A DNA stretch of 50,689 nt from a virus: IMG/VR virus record IMGVR_UViG_3300033146_000748, positions 1 through 50,689 of that record; one strand, 5' to 3'. Shown here in pieces: positions 129-41,106 of the stretch. The stretch's first letter is position 1; every line of letters starts with the position of its first letter. Both the position numbers and the translations under genes were made by a program. Below the pieces are notes generated by a model, which was not told the DNA's origin, searched no databases, and saw only the letters and a list, made by a program, of their open reading frames with translations.

Positions 129-204
129 TGGTCAGGGGTAGGAGGATCGAACTCCTATTTGCTGGGTCACAACCAACACGATTAACCAATTATCTTAACC
201 CCTA
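129..204 (-). tRNA. tRNA-His(GUG)
   Basis: The cloverleaf has acceptor TAGGGGT/ACCCCTG, anticodon loop TTGTGAC on stem GTTGG/CCAGC, T-arm AGGAG-TTCGATC-CTCCT and encoded CCA. Pair 1:72 is U-G, position 73 is A, and no G-1 is encoded, whereas bacterial tRNA-His carries G-1:C73. Decoding specificity is clear; charging by the host enzyme is less certain. Confidence 0.85.
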
Positions 205-212
205 TTATATTT

Positions 213-286
213 TGGTACTCCCTGATGGAATCGAACCACCATCAATAGGATGTAAGCCTATTGTATTCCCATTATACGAAGGGAGC
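213..286 (-). tRNA. tRNA-Val(UAC)
   Basis: Acceptor GCTCCCT/AGGGAGT, anticodon loop CTTACAT on an AATAGG/CCTATT stem, T-loop TTCGATT and encoded CCA form a standard class I tRNA reading GUA and related Val codons. Confidence 0.92.
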
Positions 287-295
287 TTATATTTT

Positions 296-370
296 TGGTG
301 GAACTGGTGGGATTTGAACCCACAACCTTCTATTTGCAAAACAGATACACTCCCATTGTGTTACAGCCCC
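296..370 (-). tRNA. tRNA-Ala(UGC)
   Basis: Acceptor GGGGCTG/CAGTTCC contains two G-U pairs. The anticodon loop TTTGCAA sits on TCTGT/ATAGA, the T-arm is GTGGG/CCCAC, and CCA is encoded. Confidence 0.92.
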
Positions 371-381
371 ATATATTCTTT

Positions 382-456
382 TGGTGGGAGTGAAAGGAAT
401 CGAACCTTACGTCTTTGTCTTATCAGGACACTGCTCTACCATTGAGCTACACTCCC
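382..456 (-). tRNA. tRNA-Ile(GAU)
   Basis: Acceptor GGGAGTG/CACTCCC, canonical D-arm, anticodon loop CTGATAA on TGTC/GACA, T-loop TTCGATT and encoded CCA. Confidence 0.92.
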
Positions 457-528
457 TTATATTTTTTACATGCCCACTAAAATCGTCTATTCCTAATCTT
501 GTTGAGTAGCTAATTCAACATCAAAAAG

Positions 529-559
529 GACAATATTGGTCAACACCCAATATTTTGTC
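529..559 (-). terminator. intrinsic terminator-like hairpin between tRNAs
   Basis: On the minus strand an 11-bp stem (arms GACAA-ATATTGG and CCAATATTGTC, one bulged A) with a 7-nt loop is followed by CTTTTT. A second small hairpin (TGTTGA/TCAACA) follows at about 500-523. It lies downstream of tRNA-Gly and may end or process the transcript. Confidence 0.5.
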
Positions 560-578
560 TCGATTAAAGTAGAAAATC

Positions 579-653
579 TGGAGCAGGTACTCGGAATTGA
601 ACCGAGATCTTCTGATTGGAAGTCAGACATAATAGCCGTTATACGATACCCGC
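579..653 (-). tRNA. tRNA-Gly(UCC)
   Basis: Acceptor GCGGGTA/TACCTGC, anticodon loop CTTCCAA on TCTGA/TCAGA, T-arm CTCGG-TTCAATT-CCGAG and encoded CCA. Confidence 0.92.
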
Positions 654-664
654 ATTTTATTTTA

Positions 665-741
665 TGGTAGGATTGGTAGGAGTCGAACCTACAACATTTG
701 GTTTCTAAGACCAACACCTCTGCCAATTGGGTCACAATCCC
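665..741 (-). tRNA. tRNA-Leu(UAG), short variable arm
   Basis: Acceptor GGGATTG/CAATCCT, anticodon loop CTTAGAA on TTGGT/ACCAA, T-arm GTAGG/CCTAC and encoded CCA. Anticodon UAG reads CUA (Leu). The variable region is only about 5 nt (ATGTT), whereas bacterial tRNA-Leu is class II with a long variable arm. The backbone nearly matches that at 1166-1242, so the two are paralogues with different anticodons. Confidence 0.8.
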
Positions 742-807
742 ACATTTTTATTATATTAAAGTGACTTTTTTGTATTTGAGAGTCACTAACAACTCAAATA
801 ATACTCT

Positions 808-883
808 TGGTGGAAAGTCAAGGAATCGAACCTTGTTATTCCGAGCTTCAATCGGACGCATTGACCACAATTGCTTACTTTCC
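808..883 (-). tRNA. tRNA-Phe(GAA)
   Basis: Acceptor GGAAAGT/ACTTTCC, anticodon loop TTGAAGC on TCCGA/TCGGA, T-arm CAAGG/CCTTG and encoded CCA. Confidence 0.92.
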
Positions 884-890
884 TTGAACT

Positions 891-965
891 TGGAGCCCCA
901 TGACGGATTCGAACCGCCGTCGGCTGCTTACAAGACAGCTGCTAAACCAACTCAGCTAATGGGGC
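891..965 (-). tRNA. tRNA-Thr(UGU)
   Basis: Acceptor GCCCCAT/ATGGGGC, anticodon loop CTTGTAA on GCTGT/GCAGC, T-loop TTCGAAT and encoded CCA. Confidence 0.92.
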
Positions 966-982
966 AAACTCTATTTAATTTT

Positions 983-1056
983 TGGCAGGGATAGTAGGAA
1001 TCGAACCCACATCTACTGGTTTGGAATCAGGTATTCTACCATTGAACTATATCCCT
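983..1056 (-). tRNA. tRNA-Trp(CCA)
   Basis: Acceptor AGGGATA/TATCCCT, discriminator G73 and encoded CCA resemble bacterial tRNA-Trp. The anticodon loop TTCCAAA gives anticodon CCA. The stem has an A31-C39 mismatch and an open outer pair, so the anticodon helix is weak, but no other register keeps U33. Confidence 0.82.
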
Positions 1057-1068
1057 ATATTTAATTTT

Positions 1069-1152
1069 TGGAAGAGGCTAGAGTAATCGAAACCCACGGT
1101 GTTACCCGTCCCTGGGGTTCAAGCCCAGTTTGTCACCTTGACGGTAGCCTCC
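1069..1152 (-). tRNA. tRNA-Ser(UGA)
   Basis: A class II tRNA: acceptor GGAGGCT/AGCCTCT, anticodon loop CTTGAAC on CTGGG/CCCAG, a long variable arm containing ACGG/CCGT, and encoded CCA. The T-loop TTCGATT sits on an imperfect TGGGT/ACTCT stem. Confidence 0.88.
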
Positions 1153-1165
1153 ATATATTCTTTTT

Positions 1166-1242
1166 TGGTAGGACTGATAGGAATCGAACCTACAACATTG
1201 AGATTTTGAATCTCACACCTCTTCCAATTGGGTCACAGTCCT
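1166..1242 (-). tRNA. tRNA-Leu(CAA), short variable arm
   Basis: Acceptor AGGACTG/CAGTCCT, anticodon loop TTCAAAA on TGAGA/TCTCA, variable ATGTT, T-arm GTAGG/CCTAT and encoded CCA. CAA reads UUG (Leu). Like its paralogue at 665-741 it lacks the class II variable arm expected for Leu. Confidence 0.8.
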
Positions 1243-1250
1243 ACATATTT

Positions 1251-1326
1251 TGGCAGTGCTAGGGGGAATTGAACCCGCCATCATCAGTGTGAAAGACTGA
1301 TATCCTAACCATTAGACGATAGCACC
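1251..1326 (-). tRNA. tRNA-Glu(UUC)
   Basis: Acceptor GGTGCTA/TAGCACT, anticodon loop CTTTCAC on TCAGT/ACTGA, G73 and encoded CCA. Confidence 0.92.
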
Positions 1327-1344
1327 ATATTCTATTTTATTAAA

Positions 1345-1426
1345 TCCGAGCATCAATCGACAAAAGTTCATTTGTTTATATTTCAAGTATAAGAAGTAAC
1401 TCTTATCTACGGCATCGGAAACTTTT
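1345..1426 (-). ncRNA. candidate pseudoknotted RNA between tRNA-Asp and tRNA-Glu
   Basis: Two complementary pairs cross: AAAAGTT (1426-1420) with AACTTTT (1368-1362), and TCCGA (1419-1415) with TCGGA (1349-1345). Between them is a 6-bp hairpin ATAAGA/TCTTAT (1389-1406). The order a-b-a'-b' is that of an H-type pseudoknot. The edge touches the CCA of tRNA-Asp. Function unknown; it may be only tRNA spacer. Confidence 0.35.
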
Positions 1427-1501
1427 GGCGCCCGTGACGAGGATCGAACTCGCCACAACTTGATCGACAGTCAAATATCACCACCAGGTGAACTCACGGG
1501 C
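1426..1501 (-). tRNA. tRNA-Asp(GUC)
   Basis: Acceptor GCCCGTG/CACGGGC, anticodon loop CTGTCGA on TTTGA/TCAAG, G73 and encoded CCA: a canonical tRNA-Asp. Confidence 0.92.
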
Positions 1502-1508
1502 TAAACTT

Positions 1509-1581
1509 TGGTAGCGGGTGCAGGAATCGAACCTACTATGTCGGGGATATGAACCCTAACCCCATGCCAATGACACCCGCA
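1509..1581 (-). tRNA. tRNA-Met(CAU), initiator-like features
   Basis: The anticodon loop TTCATAT gives CAU. The first base is unpaired (U1 opposite U72), followed by six good pairs GCGGGT/ACCCGC, and the anticodon stem ends in three G-C pairs (GGG/CCC). Both traits are marks of bacterial initiator tRNA. The D-region is short, total length is 73 nt with encoded CCA, and a canonical D-arm is hard to draw. tRNA-Ile with lysidine at C34 cannot be excluded. Confidence 0.78.
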
Positions 1582-1599
1582 TCAAACTTAAAATCAAAG

Positions 1600-1765
1600 A
1601 GAACAGTTTCATCATGAGAGTTTCGGTTACTCAATCGGTGGGTTTCCCCACTGAATATGACACACCTACTTTTCCATCAAGAATTTTCGGTAGTTACGTT
1701 AGAACCTTAAATTGTTATCACGCGGGATAACCAGTTCTGTCTATCCAAACCTACTTTCCTGTTCT
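1600..1765 (-). ncRNA. candidate structured RNA closed by a 7-bp helix
   Basis: Minus-strand AGAACAG (5') pairs with CTGTTCT (3') across about 150 nt. Inside are hairpin GTTATC-CCGCGT-GATAAC, hairpin GTGGG-GAAA-CCCAC with a GNRA tetraloop, hairpin GAGT-AACCGAA-ACTC, and two near-copies of GGAAAAGTAGGT. There is no ORF. The element lies between a tRNA-like gene and tRNA-Met, so it is probably co-transcribed. I do not recognise the family. Confidence 0.5.
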
Positions 1766-1775
1766 TACGATTAAG

Positions 1776-1849
1776 TATTCTAAGTTGGATTCGAACCAAC
1801 CCTTCCCCCCACTCATTAGGGGGCGTGCTACCACTACCACTACCAGAAT
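1776..1849 (-). tRNA. tRNA-like gene, anticodon unassignable, no CCA
   Basis: Acceptor ATTCTGG/TTAGAAT, D-stem GTG/CAC with GG in the loop, a C5/G5 anticodon stem and T-arm GTTGG-TTCGAAT-CCAAC are all present. The CCCCC/GGGGG stem encloses an 8-nt loop (TAATGAGT) without a standard U33-anticodon register, and the 3' end is A-CTT, not CCA. It may be degenerate or use an expanded loop. Confidence 0.55.
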
Positions 1850-1871
1850 AACTTAAAATATCTAATATTTA

Positions 1872-1951
1872 TTGGTTCTGACTTTGGTTTCAATCAAGAT
1901 TTCTAAGATCTTGTATCTTTCACCCAATGGGAGGTTTTGCCCCCGAACCAA
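1872..1951 (-). tRNA. tRNA-like element with UAG-type anticodon hairpin
   Basis: TTGGTTC and GAACCAA close an 80-nt element. It holds a perfect anticodon-type hairpin CAAGAT-CTTAGAA-ATCTTG, whose loop is identical to that of tRNA-Leu(UAG), and a GGGGG/CTCCC hairpin. No normal T-arm or CCA is seen. It is the first element behind the promoter at 1963-1991. It could be a decayed tRNA or a tRNA mimic. Confidence 0.4.
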
Positions 1952-1962
1952 CTTACAAACAC

Positions 1963-1991
1963 ATCTTACCATTTCATTATTCTATTGTCAA
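1963..1991 (-). promoter_or_regulatory. sigma70-type promoter inside the tRNA island
   Basis: TTGACA (1991-1986), 17-nt spacer, TAAGAT (1968-1963) on the minus strand. Transcription would start near 1956 and enter the tRNA-like elements, the 1600-1765 RNA, tRNA-Met, tRNA-Asp and onward. Confidence 0.75.
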
Positions 1992-2063
1992 GATGTTTTT
2001 TCAAATCATGAGGGATTTTTATTTTTTATACTCACTGAGGTAGAATCCCATAACTACTTGAGT

Positions 2064-2130
2064 TCATAATATATCCGCACCGTATCCCTTAGACTTGTCG
2101 TGGTAGTCGCCGTGATTGTCTATATTATGA
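2064..2130 (-). ncRNA. 67-nt element closed by a perfect 10-bp inverted repeat
   Basis: Arms TCATAATATA and TATATTATGA flank 47 nt that are richer in G+C than the surroundings. An internal TAGAC/GTCTA pairing overlaps the closing stem by two bases, so two folds compete. It lies between tRNA-Pro and the next promoter. Function unknown; possibly a processing or regulatory RNA. Confidence 0.4.
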
Positions 2131-2138
2131 GGTAAAAA

Positions 2139-2217
2139 TGGTCTGGGTGGTAGGTTCTGCCCCCACATCCTCCCGCTTCCAAGGCGGGCCACTTCTCTAT
2201 AATCGCTTCACACCCAG
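2139..2217 (-). tRNA. tRNA-Pro(UGG) with atypical T-loop
   Basis: Acceptor CTGGGTG/CACCCAG with C1-G72 as in bacterial tRNA-Pro, anticodon loop CTTGGAA on CCCGC/GCGGG, A73 and encoded CCA identify it. The T-stem GTGGG/CCTAC carries loop GGCAGAA in place of the near-universal TTCRANY, and the D-region has no clear stem or GG pair. The usual D-loop/T-loop contact therefore cannot form in the standard way. Confidence 0.75.
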
Positions 2218-2223
2218 ATAAAC

Positions 2224-2261
2224 TTTGAGGCTGCCCGACAACCGAGCACTCACACCCCAAA
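2224..2261 (-). ncRNA. two-tier hairpin after the interrupted tRNA-like gene
   Basis: A 7-bp helix TTTGGGG/CCTCAAA (one G-U) encloses a 5-bp helix GCTCG/CGGGC with loop GTTGT. There is no trailing T-tract, so it looks more like a processing or structural hairpin than a terminator. Confidence 0.35.
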
Positions 2262-2264
2262 CAT

Positions 2265-2396
2265 TAACTCTAATAGGATTCGAACCTATACGCTATGAAC
2301 TAAGCCCCAGTCTTCCTCATCACCTGATTTGTCAAATCTAGGCTAGGCTAAAGAGCCGAGGTCCTCCAGTGTGTCTACCTCTTTCACCATAGAGTT
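2265..2396 (-). tRNA. interrupted tRNA-like gene, Leu-type D-arm
   Basis: Acceptor strands AACTCTA and TAGAGTT, a Leu-type D-arm (GTG AAAGAGGTAGA CAC) and T-arm ATAGG-TTCGAAT-CCTAT are intact, but 81 nt separate the D-arm from the T-arm, about 48 nt more than a class II tRNA needs. Within it is a strong hairpin CCTAGATTT-GAC-AAATCAGG. No CCA follows. It may hold a small insertion or intron, or be a decayed tRNA-Leu. Confidence 0.5.
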
Positions 2397-2435
2397 AATA
2401 GATAAAAATTTCAATTACACCATCCTGATGAATTT

Positions 2436-2524
2436 TGGCTCCCCTTGTAGGAATCGAACCTACCATCGGATTTCTCACGCCAAACGGTTAACAGCCGCCT
2501 CGCCCACCTTGAGCGCTAAGGGGA
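2436..2524 (-). tRNA. tRNA-Asn(GUU) with long variable arm
   Basis: Acceptor TCCCCTT/AAGGGGA, G73, encoded CCA, anticodon loop CTGTTAA on GGCGG/CCGTT and T-arm GTAGG/CCTAC match tRNA-Asn. The variable region is about 19 nt, where tRNA-Asn normally has 5. The total length of 89 nt is class II-like. Confidence 0.82.
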
Positions 2525-2568
2525 AAACTCTTTATATAATATTAAAGTCACTTCACATTGTTAGTGTG

Positions 2569-2642
2569 TGGTTCGGGTGAGAGGAATCGAACCTCCATAG
2601 GTAGATTAAAAGTCTACTGTTCTACCACTGAACTACACCCGA
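2569..2642 (-). tRNA. tRNA-Lys(UUU)
   Basis: Acceptor TCGGGTG/CACCCGA, anticodon loop CTTTTAA on GTAGA/TCTAC, T-arm GGAGG/CCTCT and encoded CCA. Confidence 0.92.
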
Positions 2643-2829
2643 TCATTAATAACTTTAATTGGTTAAAGATACACTGTTAATTCAGAAGACTTTTCAATCT
2701 TTTACAGATACCTAGAATACTCTAACTTCAACCAATATTAAATGGTTGGCAATTTTGTCAACTCCAAAAAGAATAAATCTTTTCGAAACCCCACGGAGTG
2801 AGGAGGTTCGCCATGACCTTTTTATAATT

Positions 2830-2918
2830 TGGTGGGAGTTGGAGGATTCGAACCACTTGCCAACCGACCTTACTTTATATGACGCTGGTTTTACAGACCA
2901 GTGTAAGGAACAACTCCC
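2830..2918 (-). tRNA. tRNA-Tyr(GUA), no normal D-arm
   Basis: Acceptor GGGAGTT/AACTCCC, anticodon loop CTGTAAA on CTGGT/ACCAG, variable region starting CGTCA as in bacterial tRNA-Tyr, T-loop TTCGAAT and encoded CCA. Only 10 nt lie between the acceptor and the anticodon stem, too few for a D-arm. Instead CCTTAC pairs with GTAAGG beyond the anticodon arm, and a D-loop-like stretch CGGTTGGCAAG lies just before the T-arm. Confidence 0.7.
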
Positions 2919-2933
2919 AAACTTTTTATTTCC

Positions 2934-2992
2934 TCAAGACAAGTAAGATATTATCAAATCTCAATCATCTTGTCAATACTTTTTTTATTTTT
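2934..2992 (-). repeat. 59-bp direct repeat, copy 1 (carries a promoter)
   Basis: Identical over 59 bp to 3185-3243. Each copy contains a complete sigma70-type promoter followed upstream by an A/T tract. The copies flank the 48-residue zinc-ribbon gene. Confidence 0.9.
2948..2976 (-). promoter_or_regulatory. sigma70-type promoter for tRNA-Tyr and following tRNAs
   Basis: TTGACA (2976-2971), 17 nt, TAATAT (2953-2948). The start site would be about 20 nt upstream of tRNA-Tyr. Confidence 0.85.
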
Positions 2993-3010
2993 TATTTTTC
3001 AACCACATTT

Positions 3011-3157
3011 CTACTTATAATCTTCATTTTCAACTACTACATCATCACCACAATAAGGACAAACAACAACAATTTCTTCGTCCATGTCAGCAACAATATT
3101 ATCTTCCGTACAATCAAAAGGAACATTACAATATGGACAATGAGCAACTTGATACAT
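3011..3157 (-). CDS. 48-residue zinc-ribbon protein
   Basis: ATG at 3157 follows AAAGGAAA as ribosome-binding site. The product starts MYQVAHCPYC, has a second CPYC pair near residues 33-36, and is otherwise acidic (DMDEE, ENEDYK). Two CxxC knuckles make a small zinc ribbon, a common form for phage nucleic-acid or host-protein binding factors. It is a monocistronic unit between the two copies of the promoter repeat. No known family was recognised. Confidence 0.75.
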   Translation of the reverse strand: MYQVAHCPYCNVPFDCTEDNIVADMDEEIVVVCPYCGDDVVVENEDYK

Positions 3158-3184
3158 AATTATTTCCTTTCTAAAATCATTTCT

Positions 3185-3243
3185 TCAAGACAAGTAAGAT
3201 ATTATCAAATCTCAATCATCTTGTCAATACTTTTTTTATTTTT
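3185..3243 (-). repeat. 59-bp direct repeat, copy 2 (carries a promoter)
   Basis: A perfect copy of 2934-2992. It sits upstream of the zinc-ribbon gene and supplies its promoter. Confidence 0.9.
3199..3227 (-). promoter_or_regulatory. sigma70-type promoter for the zinc-ribbon gene
   Basis: TTGACA (3227-3222), 17-nt spacer, TAATAT (3204-3199), about 35 nt upstream of the ATG at 3157. Confidence 0.85.
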
Positions 3244-3435
3244 GACCAAACTGAGGGCTTCCATAGCTTCCCGTCATGACCTACTCACTATGGCGTGGAC
3301 AATCATATGGCTGCCACCTTTAATTATTACCCGTATCTATCCCTCATCACTATATCAGCTTTAAGTTATCAACCAATAATTAAATTCGGAATTAAGTAAC
3401 TAACTGAACCCCTTCAAGTGATTGTTTGGTCAAAA
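3240..3435 (-). ncRNA. candidate structured RNA closed by a perfect 12-bp helix
   Basis: Minus-strand TTTTGACCAAAC (3435-3424) pairs perfectly with GTTTGGTCAAAA (3251-3240), closing 172 nt. Directly inside its 3' arm, TGAGGG/CCCTCA (3346-3341 with 3257-3252) forms a second helix, and CCATAG/CTATGG (3293-3288 with 3266-3261) a third, with GGTGG/CCACGCC as a bulged helix. There is no ORF. It begins one nucleotide after tRNA-Cys. Family not recognised. Confidence 0.55.
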
Positions 3436-3436
3436 T

Positions 3437-3510
3437 TGGAGTCTCTTAACGGAATCGAACCGATACTTAGTGGGTTGCAACCACTCGCCCTACCATTAGA
3501 CTAAAGAGAC
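3437..3510 (-). tRNA. tRNA-Cys(GCA)
   Basis: Acceptor GTCTCTT/AAGAGAC, anticodon loop TTGCAAC on AGTGG/CCACT, T-loop TTCGATT, U73 as in bacterial tRNA-Cys, and encoded CCA. Confidence 0.92.
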
Positions 3511-3514
3511 ATAT

Positions 3515-3778
3515 TCAAATTTCAAATAACTTATTATCAAAGTGGTTTTTATCATCACCAACCTGATATATTAATAAAACTTCATTACCAGAAGTGCTAT
3601 AATGTATTCCAGTTCTAATACCACCTTTAGGAAAATCTAATACATTAGAACCACCATTTTTAATGGAATCAACAAAATCTTTAGCTTCTTTCAAACCTAA
3701 CTTAAAACTTTGTCGGATAAGTTTAATTGCCACAATATAATGATTTCGATGACCAATATACTTTACTTCATATTTCAT
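3515..3778 (-). CDS. small protein resembling the L7/L12 C-terminal domain
   Basis: The start is ATG 3778 (MKYEVKYIGH...), preceded by AAGGG; a longer reading would run through tRNA-Gln sequence. The 87-residue product contains IRQSFKLGLKEAKDFVD at about residues 20-36. This matches the helix-turn-helix face of ribosomal stalk protein L7/L12 (GLxLKEAKDLVE-type), the part that contacts translation GTPases. The C-terminal half is unrelated. Its location inside a tRNA cluster suggests a translation-related role, but that is inference. Confidence 0.7.
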   Translation of the reverse strand: MKYEVKYIGHRNHYIVAIKLIRQSFKLGLKEAKDFVDSIKNGGSNVLDFPKGGIRTGIHYSTSGNEVLLIYQVGDDKNHFDNKLFEI

Positions 3779-3792
3779 TATGAACCCTTTTT

Positions 3793-3868
3793 TGGCGGGG
3801 GCGGGGGGATTCGAACCCACCAATACACTCAGTCAAAGTGAGTTGCCTTTCCAGTTGGCTACGCCCCT
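3793..3868 (-). tRNA. tRNA-Gln(UUG)
   Basis: Acceptor AGGGGCG/CGCCCCC has a non-pairing A1-C72, as weak first pairs are typical of Gln. The D-stem is GCC/GGC, the anticodon loop CTTTGAC on ACTCA/TGAGT, the T-loop TTCGAAT, with G73 and encoded CCA. It overlaps the stop codon of the next gene by 2 bp. Confidence 0.88.
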
Positions 3869-36908: not shown

Positions 36909-37634
36909 CTATCTCCTACTTGTAACTGTTATTTTTTTATGTTTTTCATTAAGTAATGTACTTCTATATAATGGATTCAAATCAATAAAAGTTATATCCA
37001 ACTGTGCCTTTGAAGGATAACCATCTAACCAAGGACCATCATATGTGGTTTGAATAGATTGTATACCAACACTCTTTATACTAATTATATCTACAGGTTG
37101 ATTGTCACCAGTATATGTCTGCAAACTAAAAACATATGGAAATGCAAATTGTGTAACATTACCATTTATTTCAGGACATGATTGTTCAATTAGTTTTTGA
37201 CATGGACTAAAAACATCATCATAAGTAGAAGTATATACAGAAAATAGTAAAGCTATTGGAATACTTCTTCTGGATGTATTACTATATAATATTGGATTAT
37301 CAGCTTTATCCCCTACAGAAAATCCACCTTTATCAATAACACCAGTTGCTTGTTTAGTTGCTGTACTATACTTAGATTTTACATCTCTAATACCAGAAGC
37401 TATAGTGGTCAACTCATCCCAAGTATGTTGAACTGTTGCCATATAACTCATTGGCATCAAAAAGTTCATTGGTTCTTCACGAGTAGTATCATCAGATATA
37501 TTATCAATTCTTTTAGTCAAATCATTCATCTTTAGTTTTCGTGGGATTATCTGTAACCAAAGACTATCTTTTGAACTAGATCTACTCCTATTGATATGTC
37601 CTGGATAATACTGTCCTCCGAATGTATAACTCAT
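36909..37634 (-). CDS. 48: gp48-like baseplate-to-tube cap protein
   Basis: The ATG at 37634 overlaps the tape-measure stop (TAATG), and GGGGGATGG stands before it; an upstream in-frame TTG is less likely. The product (241 residues) contains NRSRSSSKDSLWLQIIPRKLKMNDLTKRI and a beta-rich second half (QTTYDGPWLDGYPSKAQLDITFIDL). Such proteins form the platform on which tail-tube assembly starts. Assignment between gp48 and gp54 is not certain. Confidence 0.7.
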   Translation of the reverse strand: MSYTFGGQYYPGHINRSRSSSKDSLWLQIIPRKLKMNDLTKRIDNISDDTTREEPMNFLMPMSYMATVQHTWDELTTIASGIRDVKSKYSTATKQATGVIDKGGFSVGDKADNPILYSNTSRRSIPIALLFSVYTSTYDDVFSPCQKLIEQSCPEINGNVTQFAFPYVFSLQTYTGDNQPVDIISIKSVGIQSIQTTYDGPWLDGYPSKAQLDITFIDLNPLYRSTLLNEKHKKITVTSRR

Positions 37635-39529
37635 TAACCCATCCCCCAAGTTTTAGAAAATAATACAACTCCCATTGCTTCTGGATCAGTTGGTATTTCA
37701 TTTCCACCATCAGATACATTAATTATTTCTTGATTTTGTATTATTTGTTTATTTGTTGTATTTGTTTCTGTTAAATTTCTATTAGTAGTATTAAGTGCTG
37801 ACACTGTATCTTTACTTCCTTTAATCTGTTCTTTTATTGCCGATGCTTTTGCTCTTTCAGCTATATGTGTATCAAAATTAGTCATATTTGCCTTTGATGC
37901 TTCAAGATCACCAACCGATTCAGTATCAACTCTATATACTCGTGTGGTTGTTGTTTTAGTTCCACTATTATCATTATCAGAACTTAATTTCTTTATATAC
38001 TTACCTATAAATGGAACATCACCTAATAATCCAATTAACCAATCAATTACAGAATTTTTTATAAAACTAATATCAATTCCAATCTTATCAAATAAATTAA
38101 CAAAGAAATTACCCATTGCATCACCAAACTCAGTAAATAAATTAGGTAAATCAATCAATAACCAATCCAAAAATGGTTCAGTAATATTTTTATACATACC
38201 TTCTGTTAACATATTTACAGCATTCGTTATAGCATCAGCACCAAAATCAACTCTGAAATCAGTGAACATACTTAATAACCAATTTACAACCATCTCAGGT
38301 AAATCAAGAAATACCGAAAGAATACCAGATGCAGCACCAAGGATTTTATCTCTAAGATTATCACCCTTCATCCAACCTTTAATTCCTTCCCATACCATCA
38401 TCAAAGGCATTAAAAATTTACCAAATATTCTACCAACGGCACCTAATAACTTAACCATAAATGTTTTTGGGATCATTTTTTCTAATTTATTAAAACCTTT
38501 TACAATATCAGTAAAAAACTTACCTACACGAATGAACATTTTACCAATTTGACCTTCTTTACTAAAAAAGTTAGCAACAAACTTAAATCCAGCTTTTATG
38601 GGTTTCCAATATACACTCAATTGTTTAGTTAATGATCCAACAAAACCAATCAATAATGCAGCAATAGGAAGAAGATATTTCATAAAGCCCTTTGTTTCTG
38701 GTTTTTCCAACATCTTATCTTTTTTATCTTGTCTCATTTTTGCATTAAATAATTCATAATTCTTCTTTGAGTATATAGCAGTCATTTTTTCATATTCATT
38801 TGACTTTGTTAACAATGTTTTAGTAAGAATATAACCACCTTTAATAACTGCCATAAAAGGTCCTGTAATAGCTTCTAATGGTGCCAATACTGTTGAAAAT
38901 TCAGTTTTTAACATTCCAGTTACAGTTTGAAGACCTTGTTTATAATGTTCAACCATATCCTTACTTACAAATCTCATCATAAAAGGAAACTTATCAACAA
39001 CTGTTTCTCTCATAACTTCAGCACCATGTACAAATTTCTGAGTTAATGGAAAAAATAATGAATTTGCGTTATCCTTAATTTTATCCCAATCAAGTGCATC
39101 ATCATTATTCCTCACTTCTTCTATTAACATTTCATAATTACGTCTATCTTGTTCAGAAGCATGTTCCATATTTTCAGTTATTTTCAACATTGATTCAATC
39201 ATCATTTTTTTAACTTCTTCTGGATTACCATGTTTCAAAACTGTTTTTATATTTTCGTCACTATGTGCAATTTGAGAAAGATATATTTCCATCTGACGTT
39301 TTGTACCCTCTTCCATACCAAGATATCTTGACATTGTTTCTGCTGTATTAGCGTAACCATCAATACTTTTCATCATTTCATCAAGATCATCTTGTTTCTT
39401 TGATGCAAGTTCAATGTATTCATTAAAATCCATTTTCTCATTTTTCATTACATCCAATGTCATTTTTAAACCTTCAATAACACGAGTATTATTTTCTATT
39501 ACTTTGTCTGATATGGTATTATTTGCCAT
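37634..39529 (-). CDS. 29: tape-measure / gp29-like protein
   Basis: ATG 39529 (MANNTISDKV...) is chosen because GGAG lies before it and the terminator hairpin upstream excludes the earlier in-frame codons. At 631 residues it has a long helical N-terminal half, a hydrophobic pair near 310-345 (YLLPIAALLIGFVGSL) and another near 415, and a Ser/Thr-rich C-terminal end. Position between the tail chaperone and gp48 is the classic place of the tape measure, which sets tail length. Confidence 0.85.
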   Translation of the reverse strand: MANNTISDKVIENNTRVIEGLKMTLDVMKNEKMDFNEYIELASKKQDDLDEMMKSIDGYANTAETMSRYLGMEEGTKRQMEIYLSQIAHSDENIKTVLKHGNPEEVKKMMIESMLKITENMEHASEQDRRNYEMLIEEVRNNDDALDWDKIKDNANSLFFPLTQKFVHGAEVMRETVVDKFPFMMRFVSKDMVEHYKQGLQTVTGMLKTEFSTVLAPLEAITGPFMAVIKGGYILTKTLLTKSNEYEKMTAIYSKKNYELFNAKMRQDKKDKMLEKPETKGFMKYLLPIAALLIGFVGSLTKQLSVYWKPIKAGFKFVANFFSKEGQIGKMFIRVGKFFTDIVKGFNKLEKMIPKTFMVKLLGAVGRIFGKFLMPLMMVWEGIKGWMKGDNLRDKILGAASGILSVFLDLPEMVVNWLLSMFTDFRVDFGADAITNAVNMLTEGMYKNITEPFLDWLLIDLPNLFTEFGDAMGNFFVNLFDKIGIDISFIKNSVIDWLIGLLGDVPFIGKYIKKLSSDNDNSGTKTTTTRVYRVDTESVGDLEASKANMTNFDTHIAERAKASAIKEQIKGSKDTVSALNTTNRNLTETNTTNKQIIQNQEIINVSDGGNEIPTDPEAMGVVLFSKTWGMG

Positions 39530-39540
39530 TATTTTTCTCC

Positions 39541-39582
39541 AATAAAAAAGGGATCTGAGAGTATTTATCCTTCTCAGACCCC
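39541..39582 (-). terminator. intrinsic terminator containing a late promoter in its loop
   Basis: Stem GGGGTCTGAGA (39582-39572) with TCTCAGATCCC (39560-39550), one mismatch, 11-nt loop, followed by TTTTTTATT. It ends transcripts from the tail chaperone genes. Confidence 0.8.
39562..39569 (-). promoter_or_regulatory. late promoter variant GATAAATA in the terminator loop
   Basis: One mismatch from TATAAATA, about 33 nt before the tape-measure ATG, so it could restart transcription right after the terminator. Confidence 0.5.
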
Positions 39583-39614
39583 TTATGAGCCTCATTGGGT
39601 TCAATTACCCAAGA

Positions 39615-39806
39615 TTATTTATTATATAATTCAGCTTCTTCCTTTAAGTCCTTTAATAACATTCCAAGTATCATCTGTCGTTCAAAATCTGGCAACCGAT
39701 TGGAATCTTGGATTGAAATATTTGCCTTGTGTGCCAGAATATATTGTTCTCTTATTATAGAATCAAGTGAACAATCATTTACCAAGACAAATATTAGCCG
39801 AAAAAA
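39615..39806 (-). CDS. -1 frameshift extension of the tail chaperone
   Basis: After the slippery heptamer T_TTT_TTC (39806-39800), the -1 frame reads CGG CTA ATA TTT GTC and continues for 61 codons to TAA at 39615. The predicted fusion would be about 310 residues. Its tail is helical (DSIIREQYILAHKANI, PDFERQMILGMLLKDLKEEAELYNK). This overlaps the 0-frame stop and lies between the tube and tape-measure genes, as frameshifted tail-assembly chaperones do. No convincing independent start codon is seen. Confidence 0.7.
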   Translation of the reverse strand, partial: FFRLIFVLVNDCSLDSIIREQYILAHKANISIQDSNRLPDFERQMILGMLLKDLKEEAELYNK

Positions 39807-40546
39807 TCCGTTAATGGTATCGACTGTTTAGCCGTAAAATCACAATTAATACATGATACTTCAACATCAAAATCTACACCAAACTCATTCTTCTCAAACC
39901 ACTCTTTGAATTCATCAAATTGTGAACTCATTAAATTATCAAGTATATATATCTTATCATCCAATGGAATATTATTAACATCTCCATCTGTTGAGATAAC
40001 CTTTTTTACACAACAAGCATATAAAGTTGTCGCCATCTCTATCTCTCGTTGACGACCTTTCAATTTCTTTCTCTTTACATAATTAAATGCCGCTTTCTGA
40101 TCTTCACGAGTTGGAAAATCAATTACTAAAGAAAATTTAGAATTAATTTTAATGATATTATCAATTTCTTCTTGTTTCTTTTTAACATTCAAATCATCTA
40201 AAGAAAAACTCTTTATATTATCCAATTTACATTCTGGACATTTGAAATTGAAATTGTATGTAGAACCTTTAGATATTTTTCTTATCTCTAATAATAAATA
40301 AAATCTATCTTGAAGATATAATTTATTAATATTAAACCCTTCAGTAACAACACATTCCGTTATCAATTTATCTAAAGCCTCTTCAACTATACCAACATCT
40401 GTCTCATCTTCATATATTAATATTTTTTTCATTTGACCAGTAGTAATAGGTCTAACCAATAACTTTTCACCACTACCTGGTAATGTACAAGGAAACTCGT
40501 AAGAATCAAATAAACTTCTTACATCCACAGATTTATTTTCACTCAT
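39794..40546 (-). CDS. 26: gp26-like tail/baseplate assembly protein (tail chaperone, short form)
   Basis: 250 residues. The N-terminus (VDVRSLFDSYEFPCTLPGSGEKLLVRPITTGQMKKILI) and zinc-type pairs CPEC (about 127-130) and CINC (about 233-236) fit the T4 base-plate gp26/gp51 family. It ends DFFG-stop directly after the slippery T_TTT_TTC. The gene follows the tube gene, so it corresponds to the tail-assembly chaperone position of other myoviruses. GGGAGAAA precedes the ATG. Confidence 0.8.
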   Translation of the reverse strand: MSENKSVDVRSLFDSYEFPCTLPGSGEKLLVRPITTGQMKKILIYEDETDVGIVEEALDKLITECVVTEGFNINKLYLQDRFYLLLEIRKISKGSTYNFNFKCPECKLDNIKSFSLDDLNVKKKQEEIDNIIKINSKFSLVIDFPTREDQKAAFNYVKRKKLKGRQREIEMATTLYACCVKKVISTDGDVNNIPLDDKIYILDNLMSSQFDEFKEWFEKNEFGVDFDVEVSCINCDFTAKQSIPLTDFFG

Positions 40547-40566: not shown

Positions 40567-41106
40567 TTAAACTGATGCGTCTGTTGCTTTTTGTCCATCA
40601 AAAATACTATCAACAATGTGATATTGATATGCAAATGTAACATCAAATGTTGAAATTTCTTTACTACTATAATCCAATGTAACTTCACCGACACCAGACG
40701 GCCATGCCTTCATTAAACTATAGGACATCACCTGTTTACCGTTTACATCAATTTGTGTTAAATCAACTTGACCAAAATATTCATCTGGTTTACCATGAAC
40801 ATTTGATGCTGGATCATGAATCTTTTTCATCCACTCCAAAAACTTACTTCTTAACTGTTGATCAACATCAGACTTAAATGAAATAGTAAAATCGGAAAAT
40901 GTATTAACCCCACCAATTTTATATTCATTTCCCTGCCAATTTGTTGTTATTGGTTCAATTGATTGTGCTGGCAAAGTTGTAGAATTAACAAGGTATGGAT
41001 GGTTATTATCAAAATTAACACCCCCACCTGTTACTTTTGCATAAAATAAATATCCTCTTGCAAAATCTTTGTATGTACCAACCATACTATCTAAATTAAA
41101 TCCCAT
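40567..41106 (-). CDS. 19: tail tube protein gp19
   Basis: 179 residues with the gp19 order: MGFNLDSMVGTYKDFARGYLFYAKVTGGG, the strand set TLPAQSIEPITTNWQGNEYKIGG, FSDFTISFKSDVDQQLRSKFLEWMKKIHDP and the C-terminal FDVTFAYQYHIVD. It forms the stacked hexameric inner tube. AGGAGGAA precedes the ATG. Length agrees with T4 gp19 (163). Confidence 0.9.
   Translation of the reverse strand: MGFNLDSMVGTYKDFARGYLFYAKVTGGGVNFDNNHPYLVNSTTLPAQSIEPITTNWQGNEYKIGGVNTFSDFTISFKSDVDQQLRSKFLEWMKKIHDPASNVHGKPDEYFGQVDLTQIDVNGKQVMSYSLMKAWPSGVGEVTLDYSSKEISTFDVTFAYQYHIVDSIFDGQKATDASV

Follow-up and report, generated by a model that had tools for sequence, protein, structure and literature searches.

Does the gp26-like gene of a T4-like virus of bacteria stop where its ORF stops, or does it also encode, one base back, the end of a longer chaperone? 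The locus that raises this question was found in a window comprising the whole 50,689 nt of IMGVR_UViG_3300033146_000748, a 50.7-kb record of an uncultivated virus (Table 1). Comparison with related loci leads us, with high confidence, to read it as a real and conserved programmed -1 frameshift, by which one gene would give rise to two tail-assembly chaperones. An earlier note on this DNA had proposed such a frameshift, and the proposal now draws on conservation of the heptamer and the extension, purifying selection, a lack of usable starts, homology to gp51, and a conserved RNA structure.

Table 1. Features of the frameshift locus and its surroundings in the window
Feature	Position	Strand	Evidence
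gp26-like short tail-assembly chaperone (TAC-N), 250 aa	39794..40546	-	ORF, PF12322, phrog_150, predicted fold
Slippery heptamer T_TTT_TTC	39800..39806	-	Sequence; conserved across relatives
Extension in the -1 frame (TAC-C, homologous to the C-terminus of T4 gp51), FFRLIF...YNK	39615..39806	-	phrog_634, dN/dS
Putative stimulatory RNA (outer stem and inner hairpin)	39718..39794	-	Compensatory substitutions among six relatives
Tail tube protein, gp19-like, upstream neighbor	40567..41106	-	PF06841, E 7e-9; phrog_45, E 3e-38
Tape-measure-like protein (presumed), downstream neighbor	37634..39529	-	Position and length only
tRNA-Phe (GAA), phage encoded	808..883	-	ARAGORN

The gp26-like gene and its neighbors

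The gp26-like ORF matches Pfam family T4_baseplate (PF12322) with an E value of 3e-30 (105.9 bits against a curated cutoff of 24.5) and phrog_150 (baseplate hub) with an E value of 2e-29. In an AlphaFold2 model built with 41 relatives (pLDDT 90), the N-terminal 95 residues aligned with YqbN (3klu) and the HK97 tail assembly chaperone (2ob9) at a Z score of 7.1 over about 90 residues, followed by 3fgx (Z 6.6) and one further chain (5.7); matches below rank 4 reached at most 3.0. Foldseek likewise ranked the HK97 chaperone first (E 0.29). The predicted N-terminal domain thus matches the chaperone fold, a Z score of about 7 being middling.

The earlier note had placed this gene between tube and tape measure. 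The gp19-like gene upstream bears out the first part, and the downstream ORF is presumed to encode the tape measure, with no match to any family in Pfam and phrog profile searches. An antisense ORF of 78 aa (39595 to 39831, plus strand) overlaps the extension region. Past the extension, at 39548 to 39612 on the minus strand, a short TTGGG/CCCAA hairpin is followed by a terminator-like GGGGTCTGAGA...TCTCAGATCCC-TTTTTT hairpin, the loop of which contains a T4-late-promoter-like (G)ATAAATAC. This looks like a promoter nested in a terminator hairpin ahead of the next gene, and a similar layout was found in L001, L007, L098, L099, L100, and L107, some of them with TATAAATAC. At a distance from the locus, a 16-gene tRNA array (129 to 3868, minus strand) includes a tRNA-Phe(GAA) that would read both slip-site codons and may be connected with frameshifting.

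The slip site and the -1 frame

The 0 frame ends in ...ACG GAT TTT TTC GGC TAA, with GAT at 39808 to 39806 and the stop codon at 39796 to 39794, so that the heptamer T_TTT_TTC stands one codon (GGC) ahead of the gp26 stop. After a backward slip of one base, the frame reads TTT TTT CGG CTA ATA TTT GTC TTG ... and stays open for 61 codons past Phe-Phe, up to a TAA at 39617 to 39615. The extension frame comprises 63 residues (FFRLIFVLVNDCSLDSIIREQYILAHKANISIQDSNRLPDFERQMILGMLLKDLKEEAELYNK), the predicted junction peptide of the fusion is ...LTDFFRLIFVLVNDCSLDSIIR, and the fusion product would have 310 residues. In the earlier note, the gp26-like identity, the 0-frame ending, and the heptamer were correct to the base, and its stop-free -1 frame of 61 codons and product of about 310 residues agree with our coordinates and translation. 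The chance of such an open -1 frame is low (65 of 20,000 mononucleotide shuffles), and it is the conservation of the site, over this statistic, that we regard as decisive evidence.

Conservation of the junction among relatives

Relatives were gathered by two gp26-profile scans of viral contigs, in which the heptamer was not used as a criterion and which gave about 160 loci. More than 150 have a readable junction in the -1 arrangement, and all of these share the heptamer layout. In the window-type set, T_TTT_TTN lies 0 to 1 codons before the gp26 stop and is accompanied by a homologous -1 extension in 80 of 80 readable C-termini; these extensions span about 60 codons, that of L167 being shortened by an early stop. 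The same heptamer and -1 layout was found at every readable junction of the marine/cyanophage set, with the exceptions of L004 and L005, whose extension is in the +1 phase and which the -1 counts therefore exclude. Isolates with the layout include Synechococcus phages S-CAM9 and B23, Prochlorococcus phage P-SSM2, Pseudomonas phage Astolliot, and Citrobacter phage Ci1. Heptamer-less relatives with a downstream ORF starting at its own codon, named in the earlier note as the observation that would speak against frameshifting, were sought, and the heptamer was present in every relative with a -1-phase extension.

The choice of codons at the junction is equally constrained. The terminal Phe-Phe pair is written T_TTT_TTY in 34 of 34 nonredundant relatives (30 with TTC and 4 with TTT), compared with 1 of the 25 Phe-Phe pairs found elsewhere in these genes. 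The codon before it ends in T in all 34, though the residue it specifies varies among Ser, Asp, Asn, Thr, and Phe, which has a probability of about 10^-6 by codon usage when relatedness is ignored. As far as sequences can tell, the frameshift arrangement is ancient in this chaperone family.

Loci L158, L168, and L169 were considered as heptamer-less and rejected as such: a TGA inside their gp26 frame stops the ORF early and hid the C-termini, which went unread and fall outside the 80. An in-frame TGA inside gp26 was also seen in L009 (about 2157 to 2159), and in these four loci TGA probably codes for an amino acid, under a table 4-like code. Another close relative (L098/L175, JRFF01000034.1; 53% gp26 identity) lies on a contig binned with the metagenome-assembled genome Candidatus Izimaplasma HR2, which is either a hint at the host or a binning contaminant.

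Putative stimulatory elements

An alignment of the window with L001, L007, L098, L099, and L100 is gap-free from the heptamer onward and revealed a 12-bp outer stem (39794 to 39783 with 39729 to 39718; alignment columns 13 to 24 with 78 to 89) that begins 5 nt after the heptamer and encloses a second hairpin (39775 to 39769 with 39749 to 39743). Across the six sequences, 91% of stem cells are paired, versus 32 to 54% when the stem is slid. There are 11 compensatory cells (columns 18/84, 21/81, 22/80, 24/78, and 33/63), compared with 4.2 ± 1.6 in shuffled alignments (0 of 500), six sequences being few for covariation statistics. RNAalifold predicted the outer stem independently, and single-sequence folds gave z scores of -2.2 to -3.0. 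On synonymous codon resampling, stability was above expectation in L007 (0 of 300), L098 (1 of 300), L099 (11 of 300), and L100 (12 of 300), marginal in L001 (19 of 300), and nonsignificant in the window itself (53 of 300). A downstream RNA fold conserved in these close relatives probably promotes the slip. In a second subclade (L140, L161, L163, L170, L172, and L173), a 10-bp hairpin with changes on both sides lies 6 nt past the heptamer, and 0 to 5 of 300 synonymous resamplings were as stable. An Rfam scan detected tRNAs only.

The marine/cyanophage group differs from the window clade in its stimulator. Its downstream sequence folds no more stably than a control taken far upstream (z -0.87 versus -0.80), and a Shine-Dalgarno-like word is found 9 to 10 nt upstream of the heptamer, where the anti-Shine-Dalgarno duplex reaches -6.93 kcal/mol versus -1.60 in an in-gene control. 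An upstream Shine-Dalgarno-like stimulator is the arrangement of Escherichia coli dnaX. For the window clade such a stimulator is not supported (mean duplex -1.45 versus -1.90 in the control), and strong downstream structure at all loci was rejected, the mean z score being -1.2 and varying by subclade.

These elements bear on whether the fusion could instead originate in transcription, through RNA polymerase slippage on the six-T run and a resulting mixture of mRNAs. The site is a homopolymer of the right kind, and runs of eight or nine T occur in several relatives (L008 and L009), but the run in the window has just six, the T before both Phe codons is always kept, and the usual ribosomal stimulators are in place, as a covarying stem 5 to 6 nt downstream or as the marine upstream words. 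We consider a transcriptional origin very improbable and ribosomal frameshifting the better account.

Identity, coding, and starts of the extension

The window's extension matches phrog_634 (baseplate hub assembly catalyst, T4 gp51) with an E value of 0.0036, which is weak alone; 34 of 40 homologous extensions match the same family, the best at 7.6e-10. A profile of the relatives' fusions aligns to T4 gp51 over nearly its full length at 40 bits, versus 13 bits for the short-form profile and 21 bits for the profile of homologous extensions, which aligns to the C-terminus of gp51. Because the fusion profile outscores both halves, T4 gp51 can be understood as a gp26-like domain joined to the same extension. 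A tblastn search of phage records with the 63-aa extension, a short and diverged query, gave no match, and the gp26 and extension profiles found chance or designed-repeat matches only among PDB sequences. The extension was modeled as a small helical domain (pLDDT 86), for which a structure search returned nothing credible and matched no solved chaperone fold. Within the 50.7-kb window, no second gp51-like copy rose above noise; one may lie elsewhere in the virus.

The extension evolves as a protein, under purifying selection. Among six close relatives, differences at -1 codon positions 1, 2, and 3 number 227, 125, and 376, and pairwise estimates are dN 0.19 and dS 0.74 between the window and its closest relative, L001, and dN 0.27 and dS 2.49 between the window and L007.

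Could this protein come from an independent gp51 gene that has its own start and is read by reinitiation after the gp26 stop, with the heptamer incidental? Cyanophage records (S-CAM9, B23, and P-SSM2) do annotate a coding sequence of its own, and in some an ATG lies just past the gp26 stop; the argument from missing starts is weaker for cyanophages because an ATG can follow that stop so closely. In 43 of the 80 window-type loci, however, the first 15 extension codons contain no ATG, GTG, or TTG, and L007 has its first start codon at codon 37, by which point more than half of the conserved domain has been passed. In the window itself the first candidate, a TTG at codon 7 (numbering from 0), lacks a Shine-Dalgarno sequence, in keeping with the earlier note, which found no good internal start. 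Shine-Dalgarno words of at least 5 bases precede 1 of 80 extensions, compared with 65 of 80 gp26 starts. A separate start is not credible in the window's clade. Since, in addition, the heptamer is conserved far above Phe-Phe codon choice elsewhere, conserved residues run unbroken from the heptamer onward (FFRLIF...), and the T4 equivalent is a continuous fusion, we judge a separate gene very improbable as well.

In the public records L003, L092, L093, L095, and L096 (cyanophage, Pseudomonas, and Citrobacter), the annotation gives the -1 extension a short coding sequence of its own that begins at an internal codon, so that the first residues of the extension are absent from the records.

Proposed decoding of the locus

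Under programmed frameshifting, the majority of ribosomes would terminate at 39796 to 39794 and release the gp26-like short form of 250 residues. A minority would slip by -1 at T_TTT_TTC with tRNA-Phe in the P and A sites, with help from the RNA stem 5 nt downstream and possibly from the stop codon close by, and would read 61 further codons to yield a long form of 310 residues with a helical gp51-like domain at its end. Heptamer and stem would set the ratio, with the short form at a high level and the long form at a low one. We expect the short form to coat the tape measure protein and the long form, which would be rarer, to bring in tail-tube subunits. We infer the occurrence and rate of slippage and the roles of both forms; for the ratio, and for what each form does on tape measure and tube, the model is lambda G/GT (PMC5009743).

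Possible other layouts of the same two products

In three phages of Firmicutes, a gp51-like extension was found in the +1 phase: Bacillus phage SP-15 (L005, 3600 to 3960), Listeria phage LIS04 (L088), and Streptococcus phage GXN1 (L004, 3700 to 4020). Their gp26-like genes have a common (A/C/G)CC_CGA_TTY just before the stop, a possible +1 frameshift site by its sequence, and the extension profile scores 11 to 16 bits. A +1-phase ORF also occurs in Microcystis phage Mel-JY01 (L091, TTT TTT TGG) and jumbo phage L090, with no profile support.

It is an evenly balanced question, in our view, whether the gp26/gp51 two-product output has been kept through at least four decoding layouts, with stimulators and even the direction of the shift exchangeable and the ratio preserved. 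The four would be -1 at T_TTT_TTY with a downstream stem (the window clade), that heptamer combined with a Shine-Dalgarno-like element upstream (marine phages and cyanophages), +1 at (A/C/G)CC_CGA (SP-15, LIS04, and GXN1), and split genes (T4).

Comparison with known systems

The earlier note had supposed that frameshifting was not a recognized trait of gp26-type proteins. That view is superseded: poly-T -1 signals in "TAC-N genes of T4-like phages" have already been reported, according to a passage in PMC12846349 that cites Vladimirov et al. 2022. The PRFect paper cites the same work in connection with T4-like phages in which a separate fused gene takes the place of frameshifting (PMC10885494). 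The study itself (Vladimirov, Gautam and Davidson 2022, Virology 566:9) is known to us through these two papers, and because both cite it, the principle of frameshifting is known for this family. As cited there, the gp26/gp51 chaperones of T4-like phages share with the window the protein family, the poly-T -1 signals, and the short and long products. T4 itself differs: its genes 26 (minus strand) and 51 (plus strand) are separate and gp51 is a full fusion, in contrast to the single frameshifted gene of the window, and because the two T4 genes lie on opposite strands, they cannot be joined by frameshifting.

A similar arrangement is described for the chaperone locus of the Vandenendeviridae and Andersonviridae (phage Adele), with a -1 shift at poly-T and an extension that annotations usually list as a hypothetical gene in its own right (PMC12846349). 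That locus has a GTTTTT motif and belongs to other phage families, and a covarying downstream stem is not among the features described in the passages of PMC12846349 consulted. The covarying stem, the two kinds of stimulator, and the SP-15-type +1 layout are undescribed in the literature searched, in which Vladimirov et al. 2022 is represented by its citing papers. Measured against these sources, the new detail is the lineage-specific stimulators, including the covarying RNA stem in the window's relatives.

A large uncultivated T4-like branch appears to encode gp51 by frameshifting, so the short "hypothetical" or "gp51" genes of cyanophages and related phages are probably tails of gp26. The RNA stem, Shine-Dalgarno-like word, +1 site, and split genes offer an unusual natural comparison of how chaperone ratios are set, which also bears on the way one decoding signal gives way to another over evolution.

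The slip sequence of lambda G/GT differs from T_TTT_TTC. Compared with the lambda chaperones, the window's gp26 is larger (250 aa), has, outside its chaperone-like N-terminal domain, additional conserved parts that contain cysteine, and is related at the level of fold only. The lambda proteins (Levin 1993; Xu 2004; described in PMC5009743) resemble those predicted here in comprising a short form and a minority -1 long form; they are encoded between the tube and tape measure genes, the latter being a presumed one in the window.
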